A stretch of DNA of 39,397 nucleotides. Source: a virus. Below are positions 2,239 to 17,393 of the stretch, piece after piece (the stretch's first letter is position 1; each line of letters begins with the position of its first letter). The DNA lies in the IMG/VR virus record IMGVR_UViG_3300025101_000059, positions 1 to 39,397 of that record. One strand, written 5' to 3'. Both the position numbers and the translations under genes were made by a program. Under the pieces are notes generated by a model. That model had not been told where the DNA came from. It saw only the letters and a list, made by a program, of their open reading frames with translations, and searched no databases.

Positions 2239-3018
2239 TTAGTCGTGGAAATTTGGAATAAATACTTCTCTTGGATATGGAGGTTCCCATAGAATTGGTT
2301 TTCCATTTTCGTGGTCATACTCTCCATTTCTAAGAATCCGAGCACACCTAGCCATTGTTAAAACAGAAGGTGTTTCCTCTGGTTTCTTTTTTGCTGTCTT
2401 TATATAAGTAGCTTTTACGAGTTCCCATAAATCATGCTGATCAGTAGCCCCTGCAATGATCTTGGCTGCAGTTTTTGGACCTACACCTGGACAGCCTGGG
2501 TATCCATCGCAAGCATCTCCAGTTAAAACCTGTGTATAGAAAGACAAATCAGCTTCCCACTCAGAGATCTCTTGCAAAGAACCTTCTGAATCAATATGGA
2601 TTCCAGGAATAGTTCTTAGATCTTTATCTCTTGAATAGATAACGTCATCTTCCTCATAAGAAATACCAACTACATCATCGGCTTCGACATTGGGTAACGT
2701 GAGGATGGGCCATGTTTTATTAAGCCACTTCCGTAATGCTGAATACCCTGCAGGTTTTCTGTATTTGAGGCGATTTGATTTGTAAAAGGGATAGACCGAA
2801 TAGCGGTAATTCGTCCTGTCACCCACGGCCAAGAATATTTCATGGTTGGGGGCAAATGATTGAACACGTTCGATTTCTGAGGTGATGGCATCTTTGGCTT
2901 CAGTGATACGACATTGATAAGTCCAGACATCTGGAGAGAACTCAACTTCATATTCCGCGCTAGAGGCGCAACGATAAAGATCAGGCTCTACGTCATAGAT
3001 CAATTTCGGCTCGGTCAT
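2239..3018 (-). CDS. 5'-3' exonuclease, T7 gp6-like (FEN family)
   Basis: 259 residues from ATG at 3018. Family features: an N-terminal LIYDVEPDLYR segment; GDRTNYRY and the arch-like region with R/K-rich YKSNRLKYRK; the acidic metal-binding cluster VEADDVVG near residues 115-125; SRDKDLR; and the helix-three-turn-helix signature LTGDACDGYPGCPGVGPKTAAKI near residues 165-190. In T7-like phages this enzyme removes RNA primers and degrades host DNA. It ends the leftward replication operon. An upstream in-frame TTG at 3033 is possible, but ATG at 3018 gives the conventional start. Confidence 0.9.
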   Translation of the reverse strand: MTEPKLIYDVEPDLYRCASSAEYEVEFSPDVWTYQCRITEAKDAITSEIERVQSFAPNHEIFLAVGDRTNYRYSVYPFYKSNRLKYRKPAGYSALRKWLNKTWPILTLPNVEADDVVGISYEEDDVIYSRDKDLRTIPGIHIDSEGSLQEISEWEADLSFYTQVLTGDACDGYPGCPGVGPKTAAKIIAGATDQHDLWELVKATYIKTAKKKPEETPSVLTMARCARILRNGEYDHENGKPILWEPPYPREVFIPNFHD

Positions 3019-3121
3019 GGTTTTGTTTCGCAAGAATTAGTTTTGCTTTAAGGAGTTTTAGTTCAGCTATCCGATCATCAATAGCTTTGAGTTGTTCTTC
3101 TCGCCAAGAAGTAGAAGTCAT
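2993..3121 (-). CDS. 42-residue coiled-coil protein, unknown
   Basis: A small frame, MTSTSWREEQLKAIDDRIAE..., linked by an ATGA overlap to the gene upstream and overlapping the exonuclease start by about 26 bases. The sequence is nearly all charged or Leu-rich helix and probably forms a short coiled coil. Tight packing on both sides supports it. No function known. Confidence 0.5.
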   Translation of the reverse strand: MTSTSWREEQLKAIDDRIAELKLLKAKLILAKQNHDRAEIDL

Positions 3122-3240
3122 TTTTCGTGATAGTCCTTAATCCTATGAAGGGCTTCTAAATAGCCATCCCACCACATAGATTTGAGCTTGTTACCTTTAT
3201 CAAACTCATCGCAGTAAGACTCATTAGCGTCAATGATCAT
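3118..3240 (-). CDS. 40-residue protein, unknown
   Basis: Begins at ATG 3240 within an overlap with the preceding gene's stop and reads MIIDANESYCDEFDKG... to DYHEK, ending in an ATGA overlap with the next gene. An AGGAG sequence lies about ten bases upstream as a ribosome site. The longer in-frame extension is antisense-free but overlaps the 93-residue gene heavily, so the short version is preferred. Small charged protein with a WWDGYLEAL helix; function unknown. Confidence 0.5.
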   Translation of the reverse strand: MIIDANESYCDEFDKGNKLKSMWWDGYLEALHRIKDYHEK

Positions 3241-3511
3241 GGCTTTGATCGTCTCCTGACTTACTTTCACTGGAGTCTTTTTCGGCGGTGTCGTTTGGAA
3301 AAGAGTCGTATCCAAGAACGGAGCGTATATTTTCGAGATCAGCGACTCGTTTGGCATAGTCTCTTTCATTTTCTTTGTAAATAATGGTGCAAGATGTTGG
3401 ATAAATTTCAGTAACCATTGCTTTCTTCCAGGTAGAACCAAAGAAGAAGTAAACAGCTTGTGCTTTTCTGAGTTGATTCCAATTCAGAACGGGATGGCCT
3501 GGTCTTCCCAT
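3230..3511 (-). CDS. Small protein with possible SH3-like core, unknown
   Basis: 93 residues from ATG 3511 (MGRPGHPVLNWNQL), overlapping the 3' end of the primase-helicase by about 28 bases. The middle (AVYFFFGSTWKKAMVTEIYPTS) looks like a beta-rich small domain; the C-terminus is acidic and hydrophilic (SSESKSGDDQSHDH). It occupies part of the interval where T7-like phages carry DNA polymerase, but has no polymerase feature. Function unknown. Confidence 0.55.
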   Translation of the reverse strand: MGRPGHPVLNWNQLRKAQAVYFFFGSTWKKAMVTEIYPTSCTIIYKENERDYAKRVADLENIRSVLGYDSFPNDTAEKDSSESKSGDDQSHDH

Positions 3512-5064
3512 GTGTGATTTAGAGATTGGGTTTGTTCGTCGAAGTGAAATGAGCCTGCATACCCAGTCCGTCCCAACATTCGATTTTTCAAGCATTGGGA
3601 GTGAGTAGTGTGTTCTCCTCTTTTTCTAGAGAGGGCCCAAATCGTGTCTGACAACTGGACAATTCCATGTGAACCGCGAATGTTATGTAGCTCTGGTGAA
3701 CTACCGTTTTCAAAATTTTCTCCACTAGAGGAGCGATTGAGATGACTGATAGCGAACACTGTGCATTTAGTAGCAGCAATGAAACTTCTGATCTTGGTGA
3801 TCATCGAATCCAAATGTCTTGTGTCTTGAGCTAAACCACTACCAATAATCGTTAGATGATCAAGGTAGAGATGCTGACAACCAAGACTCATAACCATGTA
3901 CTTCATCCTTTGGAGGATGACCTTTTCATCAAGCGATCCAAAATGATCAAACAACTCAAGGTTTCCAGAACCCGTAACAAACTTGTCAGCTTGTGCGATG
4001 TTCTGAACTTGTTCATCAGTTAGTCCTGCATAGTTTTGTCGAGCGTGAAGCTGCAAACCAGAGGCCATTCCAACGAAGCGAAAGACTGCTTCTTCTGCTG
4101 TCTCTTCTAATCCAATCCAGCCTACTTTTATACCTCTCTCCATATCATGTAATGCCAACGCCCTTGCAAAGGTTGTCTTACCAATGCCTGACCCCGCAAT
4201 TAATACGATGAGTTGGTTGTCATAGAAAGGTGTCTTGTCATTCCAGAAACCAAAAGCACAATTTGTTGCTCTTCGATCTGGTGGTTTCTTTGCTATCCCT
4301 GCATAAGCAGAGGCAGGTTTAATTCCATCAGGTCTTAACTCTTTAGCTGCAGAAATTGCTTCCTTTAGAGCGTGAGCACCTAATTCTTGGAGAGTGTCAT
4401 TGGCATCTTTCTTAGGAAAGACAACACGACGAACTTGGCCTGGTTCAAAGAGAGCGACAAGATCATCAGCAGCAGCATTACCTGGATCATCGTTATCAGT
4501 GCAGACATAAATAACTTTGAACTGACTGAAGAAATTGAACTTCTTTTTTACAAAATTAGCTGCATTCTGTGCTCCATTTGGAACAGAGACTCCAACTATT
4601 TTTCCACTGGTGGCTGCATAGACTGAGGGGGCATCGAACTCGCCTTCGCATATAGCGATTGCATCATGGTGGGTAGGATTTGCGAGATGTGAACCAAACC
4701 CTGCGACTGATTTCGCGTCACCTTTCCAGGAGATTTTTTTCTCATTAGATCTTTGTTTAACTGCAATGTTTTTTCCTGAGTCGTCTCGATAAAGGAAAGC
4801 AACGCCTGTTTCTGTCTTGAGAATGTTGTATTGATCAAGTACACGTTTAGGTATGCCTCGATAATGGTCAGACTCCCAAGGTGGTAAATCTTCAATAGGT
4901 TTCATTGGCCGAAAAGGTTCCTGTCTGGGAGCTTTTTCAGGGGTTTCTCCTTTCGTGAACTTTTGGCAGGCGAAACAGAACGTGTGGTCCGTGTAGATCG
5001 CCAAAGCGTCAGAGCTATCGCAGTCGGGGCAAGAATCGTGACGAACAAAACGGGATTCACCCAT
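3484..5064 (-). CDS. Primase-helicase, T7 gp4-like
   Basis: 526 residues from ATG 5064, overlapping the zinc-ribbon gene by eight bases. The N-terminus has a zinc-binding domain with Cys12, Cys15, Cys30 and Cys33 (CPDC...CFAC). A TOPRIM-type primase core follows (AICEGEFDAPSVYA and VCTDNDDPGNAAA, with the acidic residues expected for metal binding), then a RecA-like DnaB/T7 helicase domain with Walker A GSGIGKTT near residue 290, GWIGLEETAEE, and HLYLDHLTIIGSG as Walker B region. The protein should unwind DNA and prime lagging-strand synthesis. Because no phage DNA polymerase is seen, it probably has to work with a host polymerase or one encoded outside the window. Confidence 0.93.
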   Translation of the reverse strand: MGESRFVRHDSCPDCDSSDALAIYTDHTFCFACQKFTKGETPEKAPRQEPFRPMKPIEDLPPWESDHYRGIPKRVLDQYNILKTETGVAFLYRDDSGKNIAVKQRSNEKKISWKGDAKSVAGFGSHLANPTHHDAIAICEGEFDAPSVYAATSGKIVGVSVPNGAQNAANFVKKKFNFFSQFKVIYVCTDNDDPGNAAADDLVALFEPGQVRRVVFPKKDANDTLQELGAHALKEAISAAKELRPDGIKPASAYAGIAKKPPDRRATNCAFGFWNDKTPFYDNQLIVLIAGSGIGKTTFARALALHDMERGIKVGWIGLEETAEEAVFRFVGMASGLQLHARQNYAGLTDEQVQNIAQADKFVTGSGNLELFDHFGSLDEKVILQRMKYMVMSLGCQHLYLDHLTIIGSGLAQDTRHLDSMITKIRSFIAATKCTVFAISHLNRSSSGENFENGSSPELHNIRGSHGIVQLSDTIWALSRKRGEHTTHSQCLKNRMLGRTGYAGSFHFDEQTQSLNHTWEDQAIPF

Positions 5065-5251
5065 CTCCCTCCCCTGGAGGTTTGTCAACAACTAAACCTC
5101 TGGATTGACCAGCAAAAACAGCTAGAAATTCCTCGGTAGTAAAGGACTTACCGCACTTTTTACAAATGCGATAACGCCTTAGTTTTTGTGTTTTGCTTTG
5201 GACTTCACGAACAGTGCTTTTGTCGTGACCACAGTGAGGGCAAGGAATCAT
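5057..5251 (-). CDS. NrdR-like zinc-ribbon protein
   Basis: 64 residues with Cys4-X2-Cys7 and Cys30-X2-Cys33 enclosing a basic RRYRICKKCGKSFTTEEF stretch. This closely resembles the N-terminal zinc ribbon of NrdR, the repressor of ribonucleotide reductase genes, but the ATP-cone domain that follows in NrdR is missing. The fold would bind DNA or RNA. Its place between resolvase and primase-helicase, with overlaps at both ends, suggests a replication or transcription accessory role. The target is unknown. Confidence 0.75.
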   Translation of the reverse strand: MIPCPHCGHDKSTVREVQSKTQKLRRYRICKKCGKSFTTEEFLAVFAGQSRGLVVDKPPGEGDG

Positions 5252-5622
5252 TCATCTTCCTCCCATGTGATATGGAGAATGATGTGTGCTTCTTTCTCCT
5301 TTGTGTGATGCCATTGAAGTGTCATGTTCCCGATAACTTTTACGTTGTCGTCTTTCCAAATCAGACCATTACCTGCATCAAGAATTGATCCGGCTCTGTT
5401 ATCAAGATCTCCACGAGCAGGGCCGCGAAAACTGATATGCAGATTGTTTACAAACTCAAGTGGTTCTCTAGTCCAGAACTCAGTCATGTGTGCTCTGGCA
5501 TTTTTGATCCACTTCTTGTAAACAGGATCGTTGTATGGTCGGCTTTGACCCATAAAGGATCTAGGTCTTGGCTTTGAAATAGGACGTAAAGGCAGAATTA
5601 CTTCTGCTGTTTTAACGCCCAT
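5248..5622 (-). CDS. RusA-family Holliday junction resolvase
   Basis: 124 residues with the RusA pattern: an N-terminal PRPRS motif, then GDLDNRAGSILDAGNG with Asp72 and Asp74, and IWKDDNVKV with Asp91/Asp92. RusA of E. coli uses Asp70, Asp72 and Asp91, so spacing is close to the family. It would cut branched DNA before packaging, the role played in T7 by the unrelated gp3 endonuclease. It overlaps the genes on both sides by one to four bases, in the operon with SSB and helicase. Confidence 0.85.
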   Translation of the reverse strand: MGVKTAEVILPLRPISKPRPRSFMGQSRPYNDPVYKKWIKNARAHMTEFWTREPLEFVNNLHISFRGPARGDLDNRAGSILDAGNGLIWKDDNVKVIGNMTLQWHHTKEKEAHIILHITWEEDE

Positions 5623-6188
5623 CAGAATGGAGCACCTTCTGCTTCAGCTACTGAATAACCGCCTGAAATTTCCTCGAAGACATCATCTTCTTTAGGTAAA
5701 GATCCACCTGTGTACTCAATAAGATCAATGACTTGCATCATCTTTGGTTGCAAGGTCATTCCTGATCCGGCTTTGTTGTTCCAGGCATAAATATCAAAAG
5801 CAATAATCACTCTTGATCCATTACCGATTTCTGTAGAAACAGGCCAAGCAGTTCTTTTGGAATCAAATACTGTTGGACCTTCTGATCTACTTCCGTCTTT
5901 ACGAGTGAAGCAAGGTAACTTGAATTTCACGACGAGCTTTGCACTGTCATCTTTATCAGGAAGACAGTTGAACCAATAAGTATTCTTTTTGGCTTGAGTT
6001 CCATGCAATTCATAGAACTTTTGCTCCATCATTTCGGTCCATTCGATGACATTTTTATCCCTGCCATCTAGGAATAATTCAGCCGTCCATTCATCAGGCT
6101 TTCCTTCTTCATAGGCTGGTCGTGCGTCGCCTAAGAGTTTGCACCAACGGATCTCTCCTTGTGGTGTCTTGATTAATTCCTTGGCCAA
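5622..6188 (-). CDS. Single-stranded DNA-binding protein, T7 gp2.5-like
   Basis: 188 residues from TTG 6188, with a GGAG ribosome site about eight bases upstream (no ATG is available). The core is a probable OB-fold with many aromatic residues (IRWCKLLGDARPAYEEG, NTYWFNCLPDKDD). The C-terminus is acidic and ends in Phe (EDDVFEEISGG...GAPF), as in T7 gp2.5, where the acidic tail contacts polymerase and helicase. It is placed between RNA polymerase and resolvase, as in cyanopodoviruses. The family call rests on position, size and tail and is less certain than that of the enzymes. Confidence 0.8.
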   Translation of the reverse strand: MAKELIKTPQGEIRWCKLLGDARPAYEEGKPDEWTAELFLDGRDKNVIEWTEMMEQKFYELHGTQAKKNTYWFNCLPDKDDSAKLVVKFKLPCFTRKDGSRSEGPTVFDSKRTAWPVSTEIGNGSRVIIAFDIYAWNNKAGSGMTLQPKMMQVIDLIEYTGGSLPKEDDVFEEISGGYSVAEAEGAPF

Positions 6189-6268: not shown

Positions 6269-8674
6269 TCAAGAAAATAAATAAGGGTTAGTTCCTATTT
6301 TTCCAGGATCAAGTGTTCCCATCTTAGGAAGATTAGGAAGAGAGATTCCTGTACTTAACTGAATTTCTTCCTTAATTCCTATTAGCCAGTTAGGTGCATA
6401 TAGAGCCCCAAAAGTATCATGTAACATTGTATGAACCCTGCCTGCATTGGTCGCATGGCAAGCGAAGCAATCGTGATTCGTGATCACTGGGATATTTTGC
6501 TCTGCGGCCTCGTAACAAAAGTTGCTTAGAAAAGTAGCGTCCCAAGCATGAGTGAAATTAGCAGCAATTCCTTTATTTGCTTGTGTTGATGAAAAACGTG
6601 AAGTAATTGGTTGATCATTCAAATGAATATGAATTTTCTTTCCATATAAAATTGTTTTAACAATGGATTTCGTAGGTTCTCTGTCTGCAATCTTCATGGG
6701 CCAACCATTAGGCATTGTCCATTCAACTGGATGACCTTTAGCCATCACTTTTTTAGTGACTTGCATCAACCATTTCTTTAAATCAAGGCAAGGTTGAATA
6801 TGTTCTTTCATCTCAGCCCATAGATGACTAGCTAAATACTTGGAAGGAATTGCGACCTCATAGGTGAAGTCTTCTAAAGGAACGTAACCAAGGTATTCAT
6901 CCAAGTTCTCTACCAATGAATCGCATAAAGACATGAACGAGCCTCCGTATGGGGCTGCAAGTATTGGTTTCTTACAAAGAGATCTAGAAATACCTCTCTT
7001 CAACCAAAGCCCTGCTAGTGCCTTTTCTTTATGCTCTCCGAATTGAAGATCATGGGTCAGTCTTTCGACAACTTTCTCAGCTACAAGGCTGTATAGATCT
7101 GCAGGGGTGTCTCCATATAAATTACATAATCTGCCTATCTCTCTGTTCCTCAACAGGGCTGCCAATATTCCACACCCTGATGTGGTCTGATCGAAGCGAA
7201 CTGGAACCCCTGTTTTACCTTCCTCCAAAACTTCTTTAACACCTTTACAAGCCTGTAAGTATTGCCAAGGATCGTTTGCATTTCTCCATAATTCAACCCT
7301 TCCTAATGGGTTAGATGCCACTGTTTTCATCTCTTCAATATGTTTTTCACCCCACTTCACACGCTCATCCCAAGGTGATCGGCTATATCCGTAATGTCCT
7401 GCTGCTCCTGCTAACAACCATTCAAAACCTGCCTCATCAACAGGTAAAGCTTCTTCAAATTCAAGAATTGACTTCTCATAATCAGGCCCTTGAGTGGTGC
7501 AATATTTATTTGATGTATAAATTCTTGCCCTATGGTCGCTGTGATATGCCTGCCATATAGTCCGTCCAGCTAGTTCTTCTGCCTGTTGCATATATCTTTC
7601 AATCTTGATTCGCCTTGGTCTGTTTTGTTCTCGATCTCGATGGGCCATAACAGCCATCCGATTCCTTTCTCTTAAATCTTCTTTACTTGGCTTATTACCT
7701 AATCTCTCAGGGACAGCTTTAGGAATCTTGGCACAAGGCCAAAGACCATTAAATCCGTTATCCCATGTAATCCTCTGAATCTCAACGATCTCTTGAATGA
7801 CCTTTAAGGGACACGATTGAAGATGATTGATAACTGCAATGTATTTAGATAGATCAGCTCTTCTGTAATGCTCAATAGCAGTTGTGTCTTTCTCTTCTGC
7901 ATCTTGAATTGGTACTCGGATTAAGCATTCCTCATTTCCAAGAACTCCACCTCCATAAAGTCCTTCCCATTCTTCAGGAGGACAAACCATTGCTGAATAA
8001 GCTATTCTGTATTTATGAACCCTGCATTCACGGATAATATTTTCAACTTCTTCAGTCGGTAGAACAAACCTTGGAGTAGTTTTGCCAACCTTGTGAAGCT
8101 CTACTTTGACAAGACCTGTTGGAAGGATGTGGTTTAAAAGGAATTGACCAATATGTAGACGGGTTAAATCATTAAAGACAGGGACAGGACAGCCAAGCTG
8201 TCTCATTATTTGGGTACTGCTGATTTTGTTCCGGCTGATTCCCTGCCTCATTAAATGACGTAACTCAACAGGGCTCTTCCCTTCAAGTCTCATCAACCTG
8301 CATTCTTTTTCTATGGCAGCTCCTAAGTTCTGCGAGAAAGCTGCAAGCCTTTGTTTCCTGCTGAGTTGGTCAATCGTTGCGACTAAAGCAATAGAAGCAA
8401 TTTGATCAACACTTTTAAATGGATCAAAGAAAGGAATAGCAGCTCCATTGATTCGTGCTTGATCAGGATTGAGCAGATATTCCGTAAAGGTTTTATCTAA
8501 GGCATCAGCAACATCAGCAACTAACGAACTGTAAAGATGCTGCCCATAAGAAAGAGCACTCTCTTTCCCAACAGCTTTTAACCTCCTTTGATTTGAATCA
8601 AAAGAATCCTTGGCCCTGGACTCAGCAATTAACTGTCGCTGAATCTGTTCATCGAATGAATTTATAACTGTCAA
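6269..8674 (-). CDS. Single-subunit DNA-dependent RNA polymerase, T7 gp1-like
   Basis: 801 residues from TTG 8674; no earlier ATG fits. Recognisable polymerase motifs: palm motif A RFDQTTSGCGILAALLRN near residue 494 (T7 Asp537 equivalent), the fingers helix RGISRSLCKKPILAAPYGG near 565-580 with the Lys and Tyr used for NTP selection, and the motif C region NHDCFACHATNAGRVH near residue 733 with the catalytic His-Asp pair. It should transcribe phage genes from its own promoters. In transcription order it follows the integrase and tRNA and precedes SSB. Unusually, it is encoded opposite to the late genes it would be expected to transcribe. Confidence 0.95.
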   Translation of the reverse strand: MTVINSFDEQIQRQLIAESRAKDSFDSNQRRLKAVGKESALSYGQHLYSSLVADVADALDKTFTEYLLNPDQARINGAAIPFFDPFKSVDQIASIALVATIDQLSRKQRLAAFSQNLGAAIEKECRLMRLEGKSPVELRHLMRQGISRNKISSTQIMRQLGCPVPVFNDLTRLHIGQFLLNHILPTGLVKVELHKVGKTTPRFVLPTEEVENIIRECRVHKYRIAYSAMVCPPEEWEGLYGGGVLGNEECLIRVPIQDAEEKDTTAIEHYRRADLSKYIAVINHLQSCPLKVIQEIVEIQRITWDNGFNGLWPCAKIPKAVPERLGNKPSKEDLRERNRMAVMAHRDREQNRPRRIKIERYMQQAEELAGRTIWQAYHSDHRARIYTSNKYCTTQGPDYEKSILEFEEALPVDEAGFEWLLAGAAGHYGYSRSPWDERVKWGEKHIEEMKTVASNPLGRVELWRNANDPWQYLQACKGVKEVLEEGKTGVPVRFDQTTSGCGILAALLRNREIGRLCNLYGDTPADLYSLVAEKVVERLTHDLQFGEHKEKALAGLWLKRGISRSLCKKPILAAPYGGSFMSLCDSLVENLDEYLGYVPLEDFTYEVAIPSKYLASHLWAEMKEHIQPCLDLKKWLMQVTKKVMAKGHPVEWTMPNGWPMKIADREPTKSIVKTILYGKKIHIHLNDQPITSRFSSTQANKGIAANFTHAWDATFLSNFCYEAAEQNIPVITNHDCFACHATNAGRVHTMLHDTFGALYAPNWLIGIKEEIQLSTGISLPNLPKMGTLDPGKIGTNPYLFS

Positions 8675-8999: not shown

Positions 9000-9872
9000 T
9001 CAAGCTGCGCGTAACCTTGTCAAAGCATTAAAAGCCTTTGCGTGCTGGTCGTGTGGCATGTGGACATATCGTTGGCACATTTGTTCCGAACTGTGTCCAA
9101 GCCAAGCAGCTATTTCCAAACTAGTACATCCACGCCTCCCAAGTTTCGTTCCACAGGTATGTCTTGTTGCTTTGATAACAAAACTTTTCTCAATTCCACA
9201 TCTATTTAGAGATTTCGTGACTTGATAATTTAATTCTCTCTCAGGCGTTGTCCATACTTTGTTTTGTGAAAAAAGTTTCACCTGTCTTTTGGCAATATCG
9301 AAGGCAACAGGAGTGAGAGGAAGTGTTCTATTAGAGGTTTTATTATCATGCGCTCTTTTAAAAAATGTAACTGTCTTCTCTTTAAAATTGTAATCTGATG
9401 CAGTTTGTCTTCTCATCTCAACAGGTCTACAGCCCATCTCACATAAAAAGACCAAGAACCTTGCGATGTCCTCCCTGTTGCGTTGCATTAAATCTTCGCA
9501 AACAGCTCCAAGTTCAAGATCTTCCCAAATAATATCTTTGTGATTATCAACAGGTAAATTCTTAGGCATTTCAGGTAAAATTTTTACTTCTCCATGAATA
9601 ACAGCCATTTCTCGCATTACTTTGATGGTGCTTACCTTTGCATTAATGGTTGCAGGAGAATTATTTAGTTCTTTGGCAAGAAACTTTCTATATCTGATTA
9701 CTTCTTTGGCAGTTATATCAACGATTGGCATCCCTGGACTAAAAAAATTAACAGCTTCTAATGCTCTTTGAACGGTTGTTTTAGCACCAACCTGTCCATT
9801 CCATTGATACTTATCTGCCTTATCAAAGGATTGCTGAATGGTGAACCGATCACCTAATGAAGTTCGTTTCAT
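9000..9872 (-). CDS. int: Tyrosine recombinase (phage integrase)
   Basis: 290 residues. An N-terminal SAM-like DNA-binding part (residues 15-105) precedes the catalytic domain with Arg149 (GCRPVEM), Lys178 (NKTSNRTLPL), Lys234-Arg237-His238 (KATRHTCGT, with Lys at the first His position), His260 (WLGHSS) and nucleophile Tyr269 (CQRYVHM), in the right order and spacing. It would recombine phage and host attachment sites, probably at the adjacent tRNA. The ATG follows directly on two tandem 10-base repeats AACCACGACC (9873-9892), with no ribosome site between. Confidence 0.93.
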   Translation of the reverse strand: MKRTSLGDRFTIQQSFDKADKYQWNGQVGAKTTVQRALEAVNFFSPGMPIVDITAKEVIRYRKFLAKELNNSPATINAKVSTIKVMREMAVIHGEVKILPEMPKNLPVDNHKDIIWEDLELGAVCEDLMQRNREDIARFLVFLCEMGCRPVEMRRQTASDYNFKEKTVTFFKRAHDNKTSNRTLPLTPVAFDIAKRQVKLFSQNKVWTTPERELNYQVTKSLNRCGIEKSFVIKATRHTCGTKLGRRGCTSLEIAAWLGHSSEQMCQRYVHMPHDQHAKAFNALTRLRAA

Positions 9873-12253: not shown

Positions 12254-12308
12254 GGTCGTGGTTGATGCTTTTGAAGGCATCATGGAACCCAACATAAGAA
12301 GGGCTCCA
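12254..12308 (-). promoter_or_regulatory. Hairpin-hairpin-motif leader
   Basis: In the leftward sense: first hairpin TGGAGCCC...GGGTTCCA (12283-12308, ten-base loop), second hairpin TGATGC...GCATCA (12263-12282), then ACCACGACC (12254-12262), then the start of the 91-residue gene. Same order as the leaders at 12724, 13718 and 14110. There is no T-run after the first hairpin, so it is not a typical intrinsic terminator. Confidence 0.75.
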
Positions 12309-12787: not shown

Positions 12788-13366
12788 TCATTCAAAGATT
12801 GCATAGCCTTCACCTTGGATAAATTCAGCCGACCAACTATTGCAGTAAAACTCACCATGCCAGACTTGTTCCCAGTCGATATAAGACCATAAAGGCCCCT
12901 TCTCTTCTTCACGGGTCATGCTGTCATACCGGTCTTCTACAAAGTCGGCTTCACTGTCCCAGATGCCGTGATATTTATCTCGAAATTGTTCTTCAGTTGG
13001 TGGCTCTTGCTCTGACCAACAGCACTCACAAAAATATTTATAAGCTTTTAGATCAGAGTCATTAAGGTCTTTTACTGTTTGGACATAATCAATTAAATGT
13101 TGAAAATCAGGCCACTCAGTACCAACTAGACAATTACAAGACAAACCTTCATGATCATGCATTGCCCACTCTTCAGCCCCTAAAGCTGGAGAATTAGCAA
13201 TTATATGATCTATGCATTCTTGAATATCTTCAACGCTCTCGCATAGTTCCAGGTTTACCCAGGAACCATGCAAATCGCCTTGATTGTATGCAGCTAAGCA
13301 AGCGAAATAAGCATTAAATCTTTTTCCACTGCCAAGAGCTGCTGGTCTTGTTTTTGTTGTAGACAT
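12788..13366 (-). CDS. ardA: ArdA-type antirestriction protein
   Basis: 192 residues. N-terminal YFACLAAYNQGDLHGSWVNLE, then IIANSPALGAEEWAMHDHEGL, then YHGIWDSEADFVEDRY and a C-terminal LWSYIDWEQVWHGEF: these segments and their order match the ArdA family, an acidic DNA mimic that blocks type I restriction-modification enzymes. The sequence is strongly acidic, as required for mimicry. The ATG directly follows the stop of the DUF2958-like gene, so both share one transcript. It plays the role that Ocr (gp0.3) has in T7. Slightly longer than plasmid ArdA, because of a middle insertion with several Cys (YKYFCECCW). Confidence 0.85.
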   Translation of the reverse strand: MSTTKTRPAALGSGKRFNAYFACLAAYNQGDLHGSWVNLELCESVEDIQECIDHIIANSPALGAEEWAMHDHEGLSCNCLVGTEWPDFQHLIDYVQTVKDLNDSDLKAYKYFCECCWSEQEPPTEEQFRDKYHGIWDSEADFVEDRYDSMTREEEKGPLWSYIDWEQVWHGEFYCNSWSAEFIQGEGYAIFE

Positions 13367-13705: not shown

Positions 13706-13717
13706 AAATAAACCTTT

Positions 13718-13766
13718 GGTCGTGGTAATGCTGAGAGAACCCAGCATGGAACCCCGAAGGGCTCCA
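13718..13766 (-). promoter_or_regulatory. Hairpin-hairpin-motif leader
   Basis: Leftward: hairpin TGGAGCCC-TTCG-GGGTTCCA with a C(UUCG)G tetraloop (13747-13766), hairpin ATGCTG...CAGCAT (13728-13747), then ACCACGACC (13718-13726) and AAAGGTTT as ribosome site. TACCACGACCAAAGGTTT is identical to the leader at 14110. Confidence 0.8.
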
Positions 13767-14096: not shown

Positions 14097-14109
14097 CTTT
14101 AAAACCTTT

Positions 14110-14159
14110 GGTCGTGGTAAATGCTGGAGAACCCAGCATGGAAGGCTCGAAAGCCCTCC
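14110..14159 (-). promoter_or_regulatory. Hairpin-hairpin-motif leader
   Basis: Leftward: hairpin GGAGGGCT-TTCG-AGCCTTCC (14140-14159), perfect hairpin ATGCTGG-GTTCT-CCAGCAT (14121-14139), then TT and ACCACGACC (14110-14118), AAAGGTTT and the start codon at 14096. This is the clearest copy. Confidence 0.85.
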
Positions 14160-15468: not shown

Positions 15469-15621
15469 ATGCCTTATCTCACAAATAACCAAAGACTTGA
15501 ATTAGGTCTTGTTGGTTCATGCGTCGTCAAAGACGAGACATTGAAAGCAGTTAAGCCTGCTAATTATTATGTGCAGGATGCTCCTGTTGTAGAAGAGGAG
15601 AAGAAAGAAGAGGAAGAATGA
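15469..15621 (+). CDS. 50-residue acidic-tailed protein before the terminase
   Basis: MPYLTNNQRLELGLVGSCVV... ending in VVEEEKKEEEE. GGGG before the ATG may serve as ribosome site. Its TGA overlaps the terminase ATG (ATGA), so translation is coupled. It is the first gene of the rightward late module. Function unknown. Confidence 0.6.
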   Translation: MPYLTNNQRLELGLVGSCVVKDETLKAVKPANYYVQDAPVVEEEKKEEEE

Positions 15622-17393
15622 AGGAACTTTGGGAACCATTACCTCCACAATTAAGAGATAGTTTTCCAAATTTCACTTGTTATCTGTTGCGAGAGTTGGG
15701 GTTAGCAGATGCTCCAACGAAGCAGCAGATTTCTGTGTGTCAATGGATGCAAGAAGGGCCTGATAAAAGTCTGACTGTTGCATTCAGGGGATTAGGGAAA
15801 AGTATTCTTGCGTCTTTTTATGCGTTGTGGAGGTTGAGAGTAGACCCGAATGAAAAGATTTTGATTGTGTCTGCAACTGCAGTGAAGTCAACTGACTTCT
15901 CGTCTTTCATGCTGCGTTGTATTGGTGAAATAGATATTCTCCAGTGTCTTATGCCTGGGACGGAAAATAGATTTTCAAATGTAGCTTTTGATGTGGGCCC
16001 CGCCCAGGTGGAACAGTCTCCGTCTGTTCGTTCGATGGGAATTATGGGTCAGACAACCGGACAAAGATGTACTTGTGCAATTCTTGATGATGTAGAAACA
16101 CTTGCTAATGTCATTACACAGTTAAAACAAGACAGGGTTGCACACGCTGTTGAAGAAATACAAAGTATCATAAAGCCAGAGGAGGGGCAGGTTTTACCCC
16201 GTAAAATATTATATTTAGGAACGCCACATACGGAGACAAGTATATATTTAAGGCTTGTGAGAGAAAGGAACTATGCGGCTAGATATTGGCCTGCGTTGTA
16301 TCCCGACGAGCTTGATTGCTACGAGGGCAACCTCGATCCGACGATTGAACAAGAGGTCTTCTCGAATAGCAGCCTCGTGAAACAACCGACGGACCCAGAA
16401 AGATTTGGTCATGAAGATATTCTCCAGAGACAAGCATCAATGACCAAAGCCAGCTTTGAACTTCAGTTCATGCTGAATACGAGATTGGCAACCTTAGATA
16501 AGTTCCCAATTCGTCTTGGTGATTTGATGGTTGTTGATTTAGATGGAACAGCCCTACCTGAAACATGTGTTTGGTCTAATCAGCCTGATGTCAGATTGCA
16601 AGAATTAGTTTGTGTCGGACTTGGTGCTGATCGTTATTACCATCGTCCTATTTTTCAAAATGGTTGGATTCCGAAATCTGATACTTGGCGGTGTGTCTTA
16701 GCTATTGACCCTGCTGGTCGTGGTGCTGATGAATTGGCTTGGGCTGTTGTAGCAGAGTTAAACGGAAATATGTTTTTACTGGAATCAGGTGGTTCAACTC
16801 TTGGTTATGCAGATGAAGTTCTGCAGTATTTAGCTAAGACAGCAAAGAAATGGGAAGTGAATTATGTAGTCGCTGAAAGTAATATGGGTGACGGAATGTT
16901 TACTGCTTTATTGAAGCCCCATTTGCTTCGCGAGTATCCCGTCACTATTGAAGAAGTTAGACATAATATTCGAAAAGAGCAACGGTTATGTGACACGCTC
17001 GGTCCATTAATTCAGCAGCATCGTCTTATTGTTAATAGTCGCGTTATTAAACAAGATTATCGGTTGACGGATGAAGATCCTGAACATGGATACGCTCGGT
17101 CTTTATTTTTCCAGGCTTCAAGGTTGACAGCAGAAAGAGGTTGTTTGTCTCACGATGACAGATTGGATGCCTTAGCTATTGCTTGTGGTTTCTTTGTCGA
17201 ATCTGCAGCACAAGATCAGGAGAAAGCTAAGAAATCTCGTGCTGATCAATTATTTGAAGATGAGTTAGAAGCCTGGATGGATGAAACTGTTGGCTCTATT
17301 GATTCAATTGCTATGGGTTGGGGTGGTCGTAAATCTAGGGGGAAGGTTCATGGCGGGGTACAGAGGCTACAGGTGGGCGTTTCAAAGGAATAA
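15618..17393 (+). CDS. Terminase large subunit, T7 gp19-like
   Basis: 591 residues. ATPase: Walker A AFRGLGKS (residues 55-62), as in T7 gp19 AFRGVGKS; SATAVKSTDFSSF; Walker B CAILDDVET near residue 155. Nuclease: AIDPAGRGADELAWAVV near residue 362 and LDALAIACG near 516 with conserved Asp. It packages concatemeric DNA into proheads through the portal. Unlike in T7, where gene 19 is nearly last, it stands at the beginning of the late module, as in many cyanopodovirus-like genomes arranged as circles. A leftward gene overlaps its last 59 bases. Confidence 0.95.
   Translation: MKELWEPLPPQLRDSFPNFTCYLLRELGLADAPTKQQISVCQWMQEGPDKSLTVAFRGLGKSILASFYALWRLRVDPNEKILIVSATAVKSTDFSSFMLRCIGEIDILQCLMPGTENRFSNVAFDVGPAQVEQSPSVRSMGIMGQTTGQRCTCAILDDVETLANVITQLKQDRVAHAVEEIQSIIKPEEGQVLPRKILYLGTPHTETSIYLRLVRERNYAARYWPALYPDELDCYEGNLDPTIEQEVFSNSSLVKQPTDPERFGHEDILQRQASMTKASFELQFMLNTRLATLDKFPIRLGDLMVVDLDGTALPETCVWSNQPDVRLQELVCVGLGADRYYHRPIFQNGWIPKSDTWRCVLAIDPAGRGADELAWAVVAELNGNMFLLESGGSTLGYADEVLQYLAKTAKKWEVNYVVAESNMGDGMFTALLKPHLLREYPVTIEEVRHNIRKEQRLCDTLGPLIQQHRLIVNSRVIKQDYRLTDEDPEHGYARSLFFQASRLTAERGCLSHDDRLDALAIACGFFVESAAQDQEKAKKSRADQLFEDELEAWMDETVGSIDSIAMGWGGRKSRGKVHGGVQRLQVGVSKE

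Follow-up and report, generated by a model that had tools for sequence, protein, structure and literature searches.

A T7-like podovirus, probably of Prochlorococcus, from a lineage without its own DNA polymerase gene and distinct from MPP-C

The replication module and the interval between helicase and exonuclease

The stretch of DNA analysed here (the window) is the whole IMG/VR record IMGVR_UViG_3300025101_000059, 39,397 bases long. It is linear and has no end repeat, and a tail fibre gene is cut by the record edge. Early genes lie on the minus strand up to about 14.7 kb and late genes on the plus strand from 15.6 kb. A single-subunit RNA polymerase together with T7-type terminase, portal, capsid, and tail tube proteins identifies the phage as T7-like (Autographiviridae); megablast against phages found no near relative. 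The replication module runs in the order RNA polymerase, SSB, RusA, zinc ribbon, primase-helicase, three small genes, and 5'-3' exonuclease. The features used below are as follows.

2239..3033, minus strand: 5'-3' exonuclease (T7 gp6/PolI N-domain type), 264 aa; PF01367 2e-8, PF02739 4e-7, phrog_107 6e-45
2993..3121, minus strand: 42-aa gene in the interval, 86-100% conserved in five near relatives
3121..3240, minus strand: 40-aa gene, likewise in the interval; conserved, and 32-41% to its counterparts in more distant relatives
3233..3511, minus strand: 93-aa gene where a polymerase would lie, kept in most helicase-bearing relatives, 33% in S-SRP02
3484..5091, minus strand: primase-helicase (T7 gp4 type), 535 aa, with zinc motif and toprim; phrog_239 2.5e-117, PF03796, Toprim_2
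5057..5251, minus strand: NrdR-like zinc ribbon beside the helicase, 64 aa; PF22811 2e-8
5248..5622, minus strand: RusA-like resolvase; PF05866 3.4e-6
5622..6188, minus strand: gp2.5-type SSB, C-terminus ...EAEGAPF; phrog_112 1.8e-13
6269..8674, minus strand: T7-type RNA polymerase; PF00940 3e-55, 57% to uvMED S37-C6
8924..8996, minus strand: complete tRNA-Met(CAU) adjoining the integrase gene, probable attachment site; ARAGORN
9000..9872, minus strand: integrase; PF00589 2.4e-10
15618..17393, plus strand: terminase large subunit (TerL), the phylogeny marker used in the trees; 81% to uvMED S37-C6

A sequence-only reading had claimed that the window holds no DNA polymerase gene and that just three genes, of 40, 42, and 93 residues, lie where one would be expected. 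Both points are confirmed, i.e., the frames in the interval are these three, all on the minus strand, and profile searches of the full record with PF00476, with PF00136, and with a custom T7-type profile found no polymerase. About 450 nt separate the helicase stop (3484) from the start of the exonuclease frame (3033), versus 2.2-4.2 kb for the same interval, measured alike, in nine polymerase-bearing phages; across 57 loci of the window's subgroup (window included) the median is 472 nt and the maximum 1642 nt. Since the three ORFs are conserved in relatives, they are true genes and not a decayed polymerase.

The family A profile PF00476 is absent from all 29 related records searched whole, and the outgroup records were positive (7/7). 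Five phages went into the custom profile, which was run against 27,704 frames from 101 sequences. The profile recovers each of the four polymerase-bearing phages kept out of its construction (E 1e-173 to 1.5e-5) and still detects the distant NMeng1 enzyme; its best E across the window, 94 related loci, and two MPP-C genomes was 1.1. PF00136 is missing from the window and 10 relatives (positive control matched), and PF07733 from 12/12 related records other than the window. PF03175 also gave no match, but its control was unmatched as well and this result carries no weight. As a T7-type replisome, the module thus has the primase-helicase and the gp2.5-type SSB, which the sequence-only reading expected the phage to have kept, and lacks the family A DNA polymerase. 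Its description of the module as otherwise complete has to be qualified: T7 endonuclease I is replaced by the RusA-like resolvase, and a sister subgroup is without the helicase too.

The record is linear and incomplete, profile searches have limits, and a passage of Cai et al. leaves open a divergent enzyme for MPP-C (PMC9860041), so that a polymerase might be sought in the missing piece of the genome or be too divergent for detection. We consider this quite improbable. A contig that is 94.6% identical to the window's left 10.9 kb (L005) continues for 6.5 kb to a homologue of the window's right end; about 5.7 kb (an estimate) separates the two ends there and holds fibre-like and small frames only, and PF00476 was not found in the whole contig. 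Relatives with closed ends are also without polymerase: exact terminal repeats occur in three of the nine IMG/VR relatives of 42-44.5 kb (77, 127, and 127 nt) and in three of the four GenBank genomes (50 nt each), the fourth, S-SRP02, being deposited as circular, and PF00476 is absent from all 13. The divergent variant is countered by the custom profile, which still detects the NMeng1 enzyme, and by the interval, which has no frame of sufficient length. Given near relatives with terminal repeats and a contig that bridges the part not sequenced, a polymerase gene could hardly have stayed hidden. Both the absence of a polymerase and the separateness of the lineage from MPP-C are well supported.

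Placement apart from MPP-C and a likely Prochlorococcus host

uvMED S37-C6 and S31-C1 are the nearest phages, followed by S-SRP02 and S38-C3. The TerL tree has 39 rows, and the 26 that belong to this lineage make up one side of a 100/100 branch; in a seven-gene tree (17 phages, NMeng1 excluded for its long branch) its five representatives form one clade, again at 100/100; both trees make the window monophyletic with the four phages just named. Like the window, the uvMED G9 phages S37-C6, S31-C1, and S38-C3 (Oinezvirus, Nohivirus, Stopalavirus) and Synechococcus phage S-SRP02 have no DNA polymerase, and they share with it the integrase, the MarR-like gene, and an early-gene order of MarR, integrase, RNA polymerase, SSB, RusA, zinc ribbon, helicase or a substitute, small genes, and exonuclease. 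They differ in GC (55-63% versus 40%) and in labels, their exonuclease being called DNA polymerase I or exonuclease; in S-SRP02 and S38-C3 the helicase is absent too. The polymerase-bearing P-SSP7, S-CBP42, and P-RSP2 also have helicase, exonuclease, and SSB, with a T7-type RNA polymerase in the first two, but a family A polymerase lies between their helicase and exonuclease.

The sequence-only reading had left open whether the window belongs to the polymerase-less cyanopodovirus lineage already reported or is an independent case, and had proposed a terminase or RNA polymerase phylogeny to decide. The terminase and seven-gene trees do not place the window with MPP-C, and the independent case is the one supported. 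Membership of MPP-C, which would imply a single loss, has its attractions: P-SCSP1a and P-SCSP2 are T7-like as well, Prochlorococcus is their host and the likely host here, and in both groups the polymerase is missing and primase-helicase, exonuclease, and RNA polymerase remain. We nevertheless regard it as highly improbable. TerL of the window reaches only ~42% to P-SCSP1 versus 81% to S37-C6; in the seven-gene tree the polymerase-bearing P-RSP2 comes next to the lineage at 96/97 and MPP-C falls elsewhere, on weak branches. Please note that the sister position of P-RSP2 depends on a single long branch that has no RNA polymerase, and that TerL alone puts it elsewhere. A constraint that holds MPP-C and the lineage together, and with it the grouping of the window's core genes with P-SCSP1 and P-SCSP2, is 32.9 log units worse and is rejected (AU p = 0.0111). 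Helicase and exonuclease genes adjoin each other in MPP-C, unlike in the window, and MPP-C genomes are smaller (37.3-37.9 kb), whereas the incomplete record already has 39.4 kb and near-complete relatives have 42.1-44.5 kb. MPP-C carries no auxiliary metabolic genes, and none were seen among the early proteins of the window that were scanned.

Because MPP-C and the lineage as one clade are rejected, and on the premise that the polymerase is ancestral in T7-like phages, the loss in the window's lineage looks independent of that in MPP-C; within the lineage, parsimony suggests one loss only, before the subgroups split. Judged from these trees, this lineage and the known polymerase-less one are distinct. 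A passage of Cai et al. has it that known cyanopodoviruses all contain a DNA polymerase gene, and it makes no mention of uvMED or S-SRP02 (PMC9860041); we found no report of this lineage as polymerase-less in the open-licence PMC literature. Counts of cyanopodoviruses usually take the DNA polymerase gene as their marker (PMC9860041), and a second lineage without it would therefore be missed by such surveys.

The tRNA-Met beside the integrase bears on the host. A 45-base piece of this tRNA matches five contigs in a collection of 84,980 species, and four of the five are Prochlorococcus single-cell genomes in which tRNA-Met is identical over 75-77 nt. The GC content of the window (40.2%) compares with 40.6-44% in 8-kb Prochlorococcus host loci. 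With an exact match of this length and a fitting GC, Prochlorococcus is the likely host. Mizuno et al. could, in the part of their article that deals with G9, assign no host to that group (PMC3861242); the tRNA match suggests one for some members at least of a group that was hostless in 2013. The fifth match is a related phage contig (NZHF01000008, L192) filed as a gammaproteobacterial MAG. It is 69% to the window phage over part of the RNA polymerase and is probably misbinned.

A helicase-less sister subgroup and an exonuclease named as polymerase

In the S-SRP02-like subgroup the place of the helicase is taken by two genes unrelated to it, p028 and p029. Sixteen loci carry both and have no helicase (tblastn), and helicase-bearing loci carry neither. 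PF03796 is absent from 13/13 whole records of this subgroup and present in 18/19 from the window's subgroup, where the one exception breaks off within the RNA polymerase; several of these records are fragments, though ones that cover the helicase position. The p028 product consists of an NrdR-like zinc ribbon, the same one that stands beside the helicase in the window, fused to a helical domain, and p029 encodes a small protein that is mostly helical. In a set of 50,697 phage records, both turned up in S-SRP02 and S38-C3 only. Comparison with known loaders or initiators, by sequence and by fold, gave no relevant match, and the AlphaFold models (pLDDT 76.5 for p029 and 68.4 for p028) gave no useful fold match beyond the NrdR zinc ribbon, a non-listing that excludes nothing. 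From their position and the missing helicase, p028 and p029 may help to recruit the host helicase. Primase loss in the part of the window's subgroup that has 424-aa helicases was considered and rejected: the zinc-binding part is in a separate upstream ORF. Such a split primase-helicase is seen at L038:13632-15205 and similarly among L037-L048, where the zinc-binding ORF overlaps the toprim/helicase ORF in another frame (read in L038 and L045).

The C-terminal tails of SSB were also compared. In T7, the tail of gp4 has a role matching that of the C-terminal Phe of gp2.5 with T7 polymerase. That this Phe matters for work with the polymerase is given by a title cited in PMC9917605. Counted as distinct tails and uncorrected for relatedness, endings in I/M/V-P-F make up 11/12 in the helicase-less subgroup, 8/43 in the window's subgroup, and 2/10 in polymerase-bearing phages, where both end I-P-F. 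All seven host SSBs that were read end I-P-F or V-P-F (four Prochlorococcus genomes; eight loci, one unread). The final Phe is missing from 21/43 distinct tails of the window's subgroup; the SSB of the window ends GAPF and that of a near relative GTPI. The helicase of the window ends ...WEDQAIPF, a QAIPF ending common to its nearest relatives only. The idea that SSB and helicase tails covary with the loss of the polymerase was rejected, as no clear rule emerged: many members without polymerase, though not all, have lost the terminal Phe, and I-P-F endings occur in polymerase-bearing phages too. For the window itself, the argument from the SSB tail is weak.

The exonuclease of the window is 46-48% to genes of S-SRP02 and S37-C6 that are labelled 'DNA polymerase I' (S-SRP02, L003, 22389-23129; S37-C6, L001, 20750-21481). 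The products (246 aa in S-SRP02 and 243 aa in S37-C6) match only 5'-3' exonuclease domains and a helix-hairpin-helix motif. The S-SRP02 paper gives ORF34 as DNA polymerase I and, in its description of the concatenated tree, includes 'DNA polymerase' (PMC8790148); the word helicase is absent from its main text. Judging from the domain matches, the mislabelled gene of a relative has hidden the polymerase loss in published work, and a published phylogeny has treated an exonuclease as 'DNA polymerase', a record that can be corrected. Another S-SRP02 gene (10903-11607 in L003) is deposited as 'DNA polymerase III beta subunit'. Its product, p014, was set aside as a candidate sliding clamp: the match to the processivity-factor PHROG (2e-8, 62 residues) is about equal to that to the RusA PHROG (4e-8), and relatives occur in both subgroups.

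Proposed mode of replication

The window and all near relatives examined are without a DNA polymerase of their own, so the host's polymerase is most likely borrowed. We consider it quite likely, taking all parts together, that the phage is a Prochlorococcus T7-like podovirus of the uvMED G9/S-SRP02-like lineage, that the family A polymerase was lost once, before the two known subgroups split and apart from MPP-C, and that the phage would use the host polymerase. It keeps RNA polymerase, SSB, resolvase, primase-helicase, and 5'-3' exonuclease. The phage helicase would open the duplex and prime, the phage SSB would coat the strands, the host Pol III holoenzyme (less likely Pol I) would make the DNA, and the exonuclease may process ends or remove primers. 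In the sister subgroup, which lost the helicase as well, the two lineage-specific genes in its place would help to recruit the host helicase.

That host Pol I rather than Pol III synthesizes the phage DNA, in replacement of a related T7-type enzyme, seems to us unlikely. Pol I does belong to the same polymerase family as T7 gp5, and a passage of Cai et al. suggests it for MPP-C (PMC9860041); however, it is a repair enzyme, and the SSBs of the sister subgroup end in tails like the bacterial ones, which would serve many host partners. The best reading is a T7-type replisome dismantled step by step, with the host's replisome taking over. A more detailed order of events is offered tentatively, as somewhat short of an even chance: the polymerase would have been lost first; in one branch the p028/p029 cassette would then replace the helicase and bring in host DnaB, and SSB would gain a host-like tip that docks host replication proteins; the window's branch, with its own helicase, would be the intermediate. 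Two independent losses and a graded series, from the full module to no polymerase and then to neither polymerase nor helicase, would offer natural comparisons of how a T7-type replication module passes to the bacterial replisome.

Two minor observations concern the early region of the window. An ArdA-like anti-restriction gene at 12788-13366 (phrog_2059 1.8e-17) is unmatched in the first 17 other loci compared. Related repeats with GGTCGTGG lie near early genes at 12254-12287, 13710-13751, and 14102-14143 and are possibly promoters of the phage RNA polymerase.
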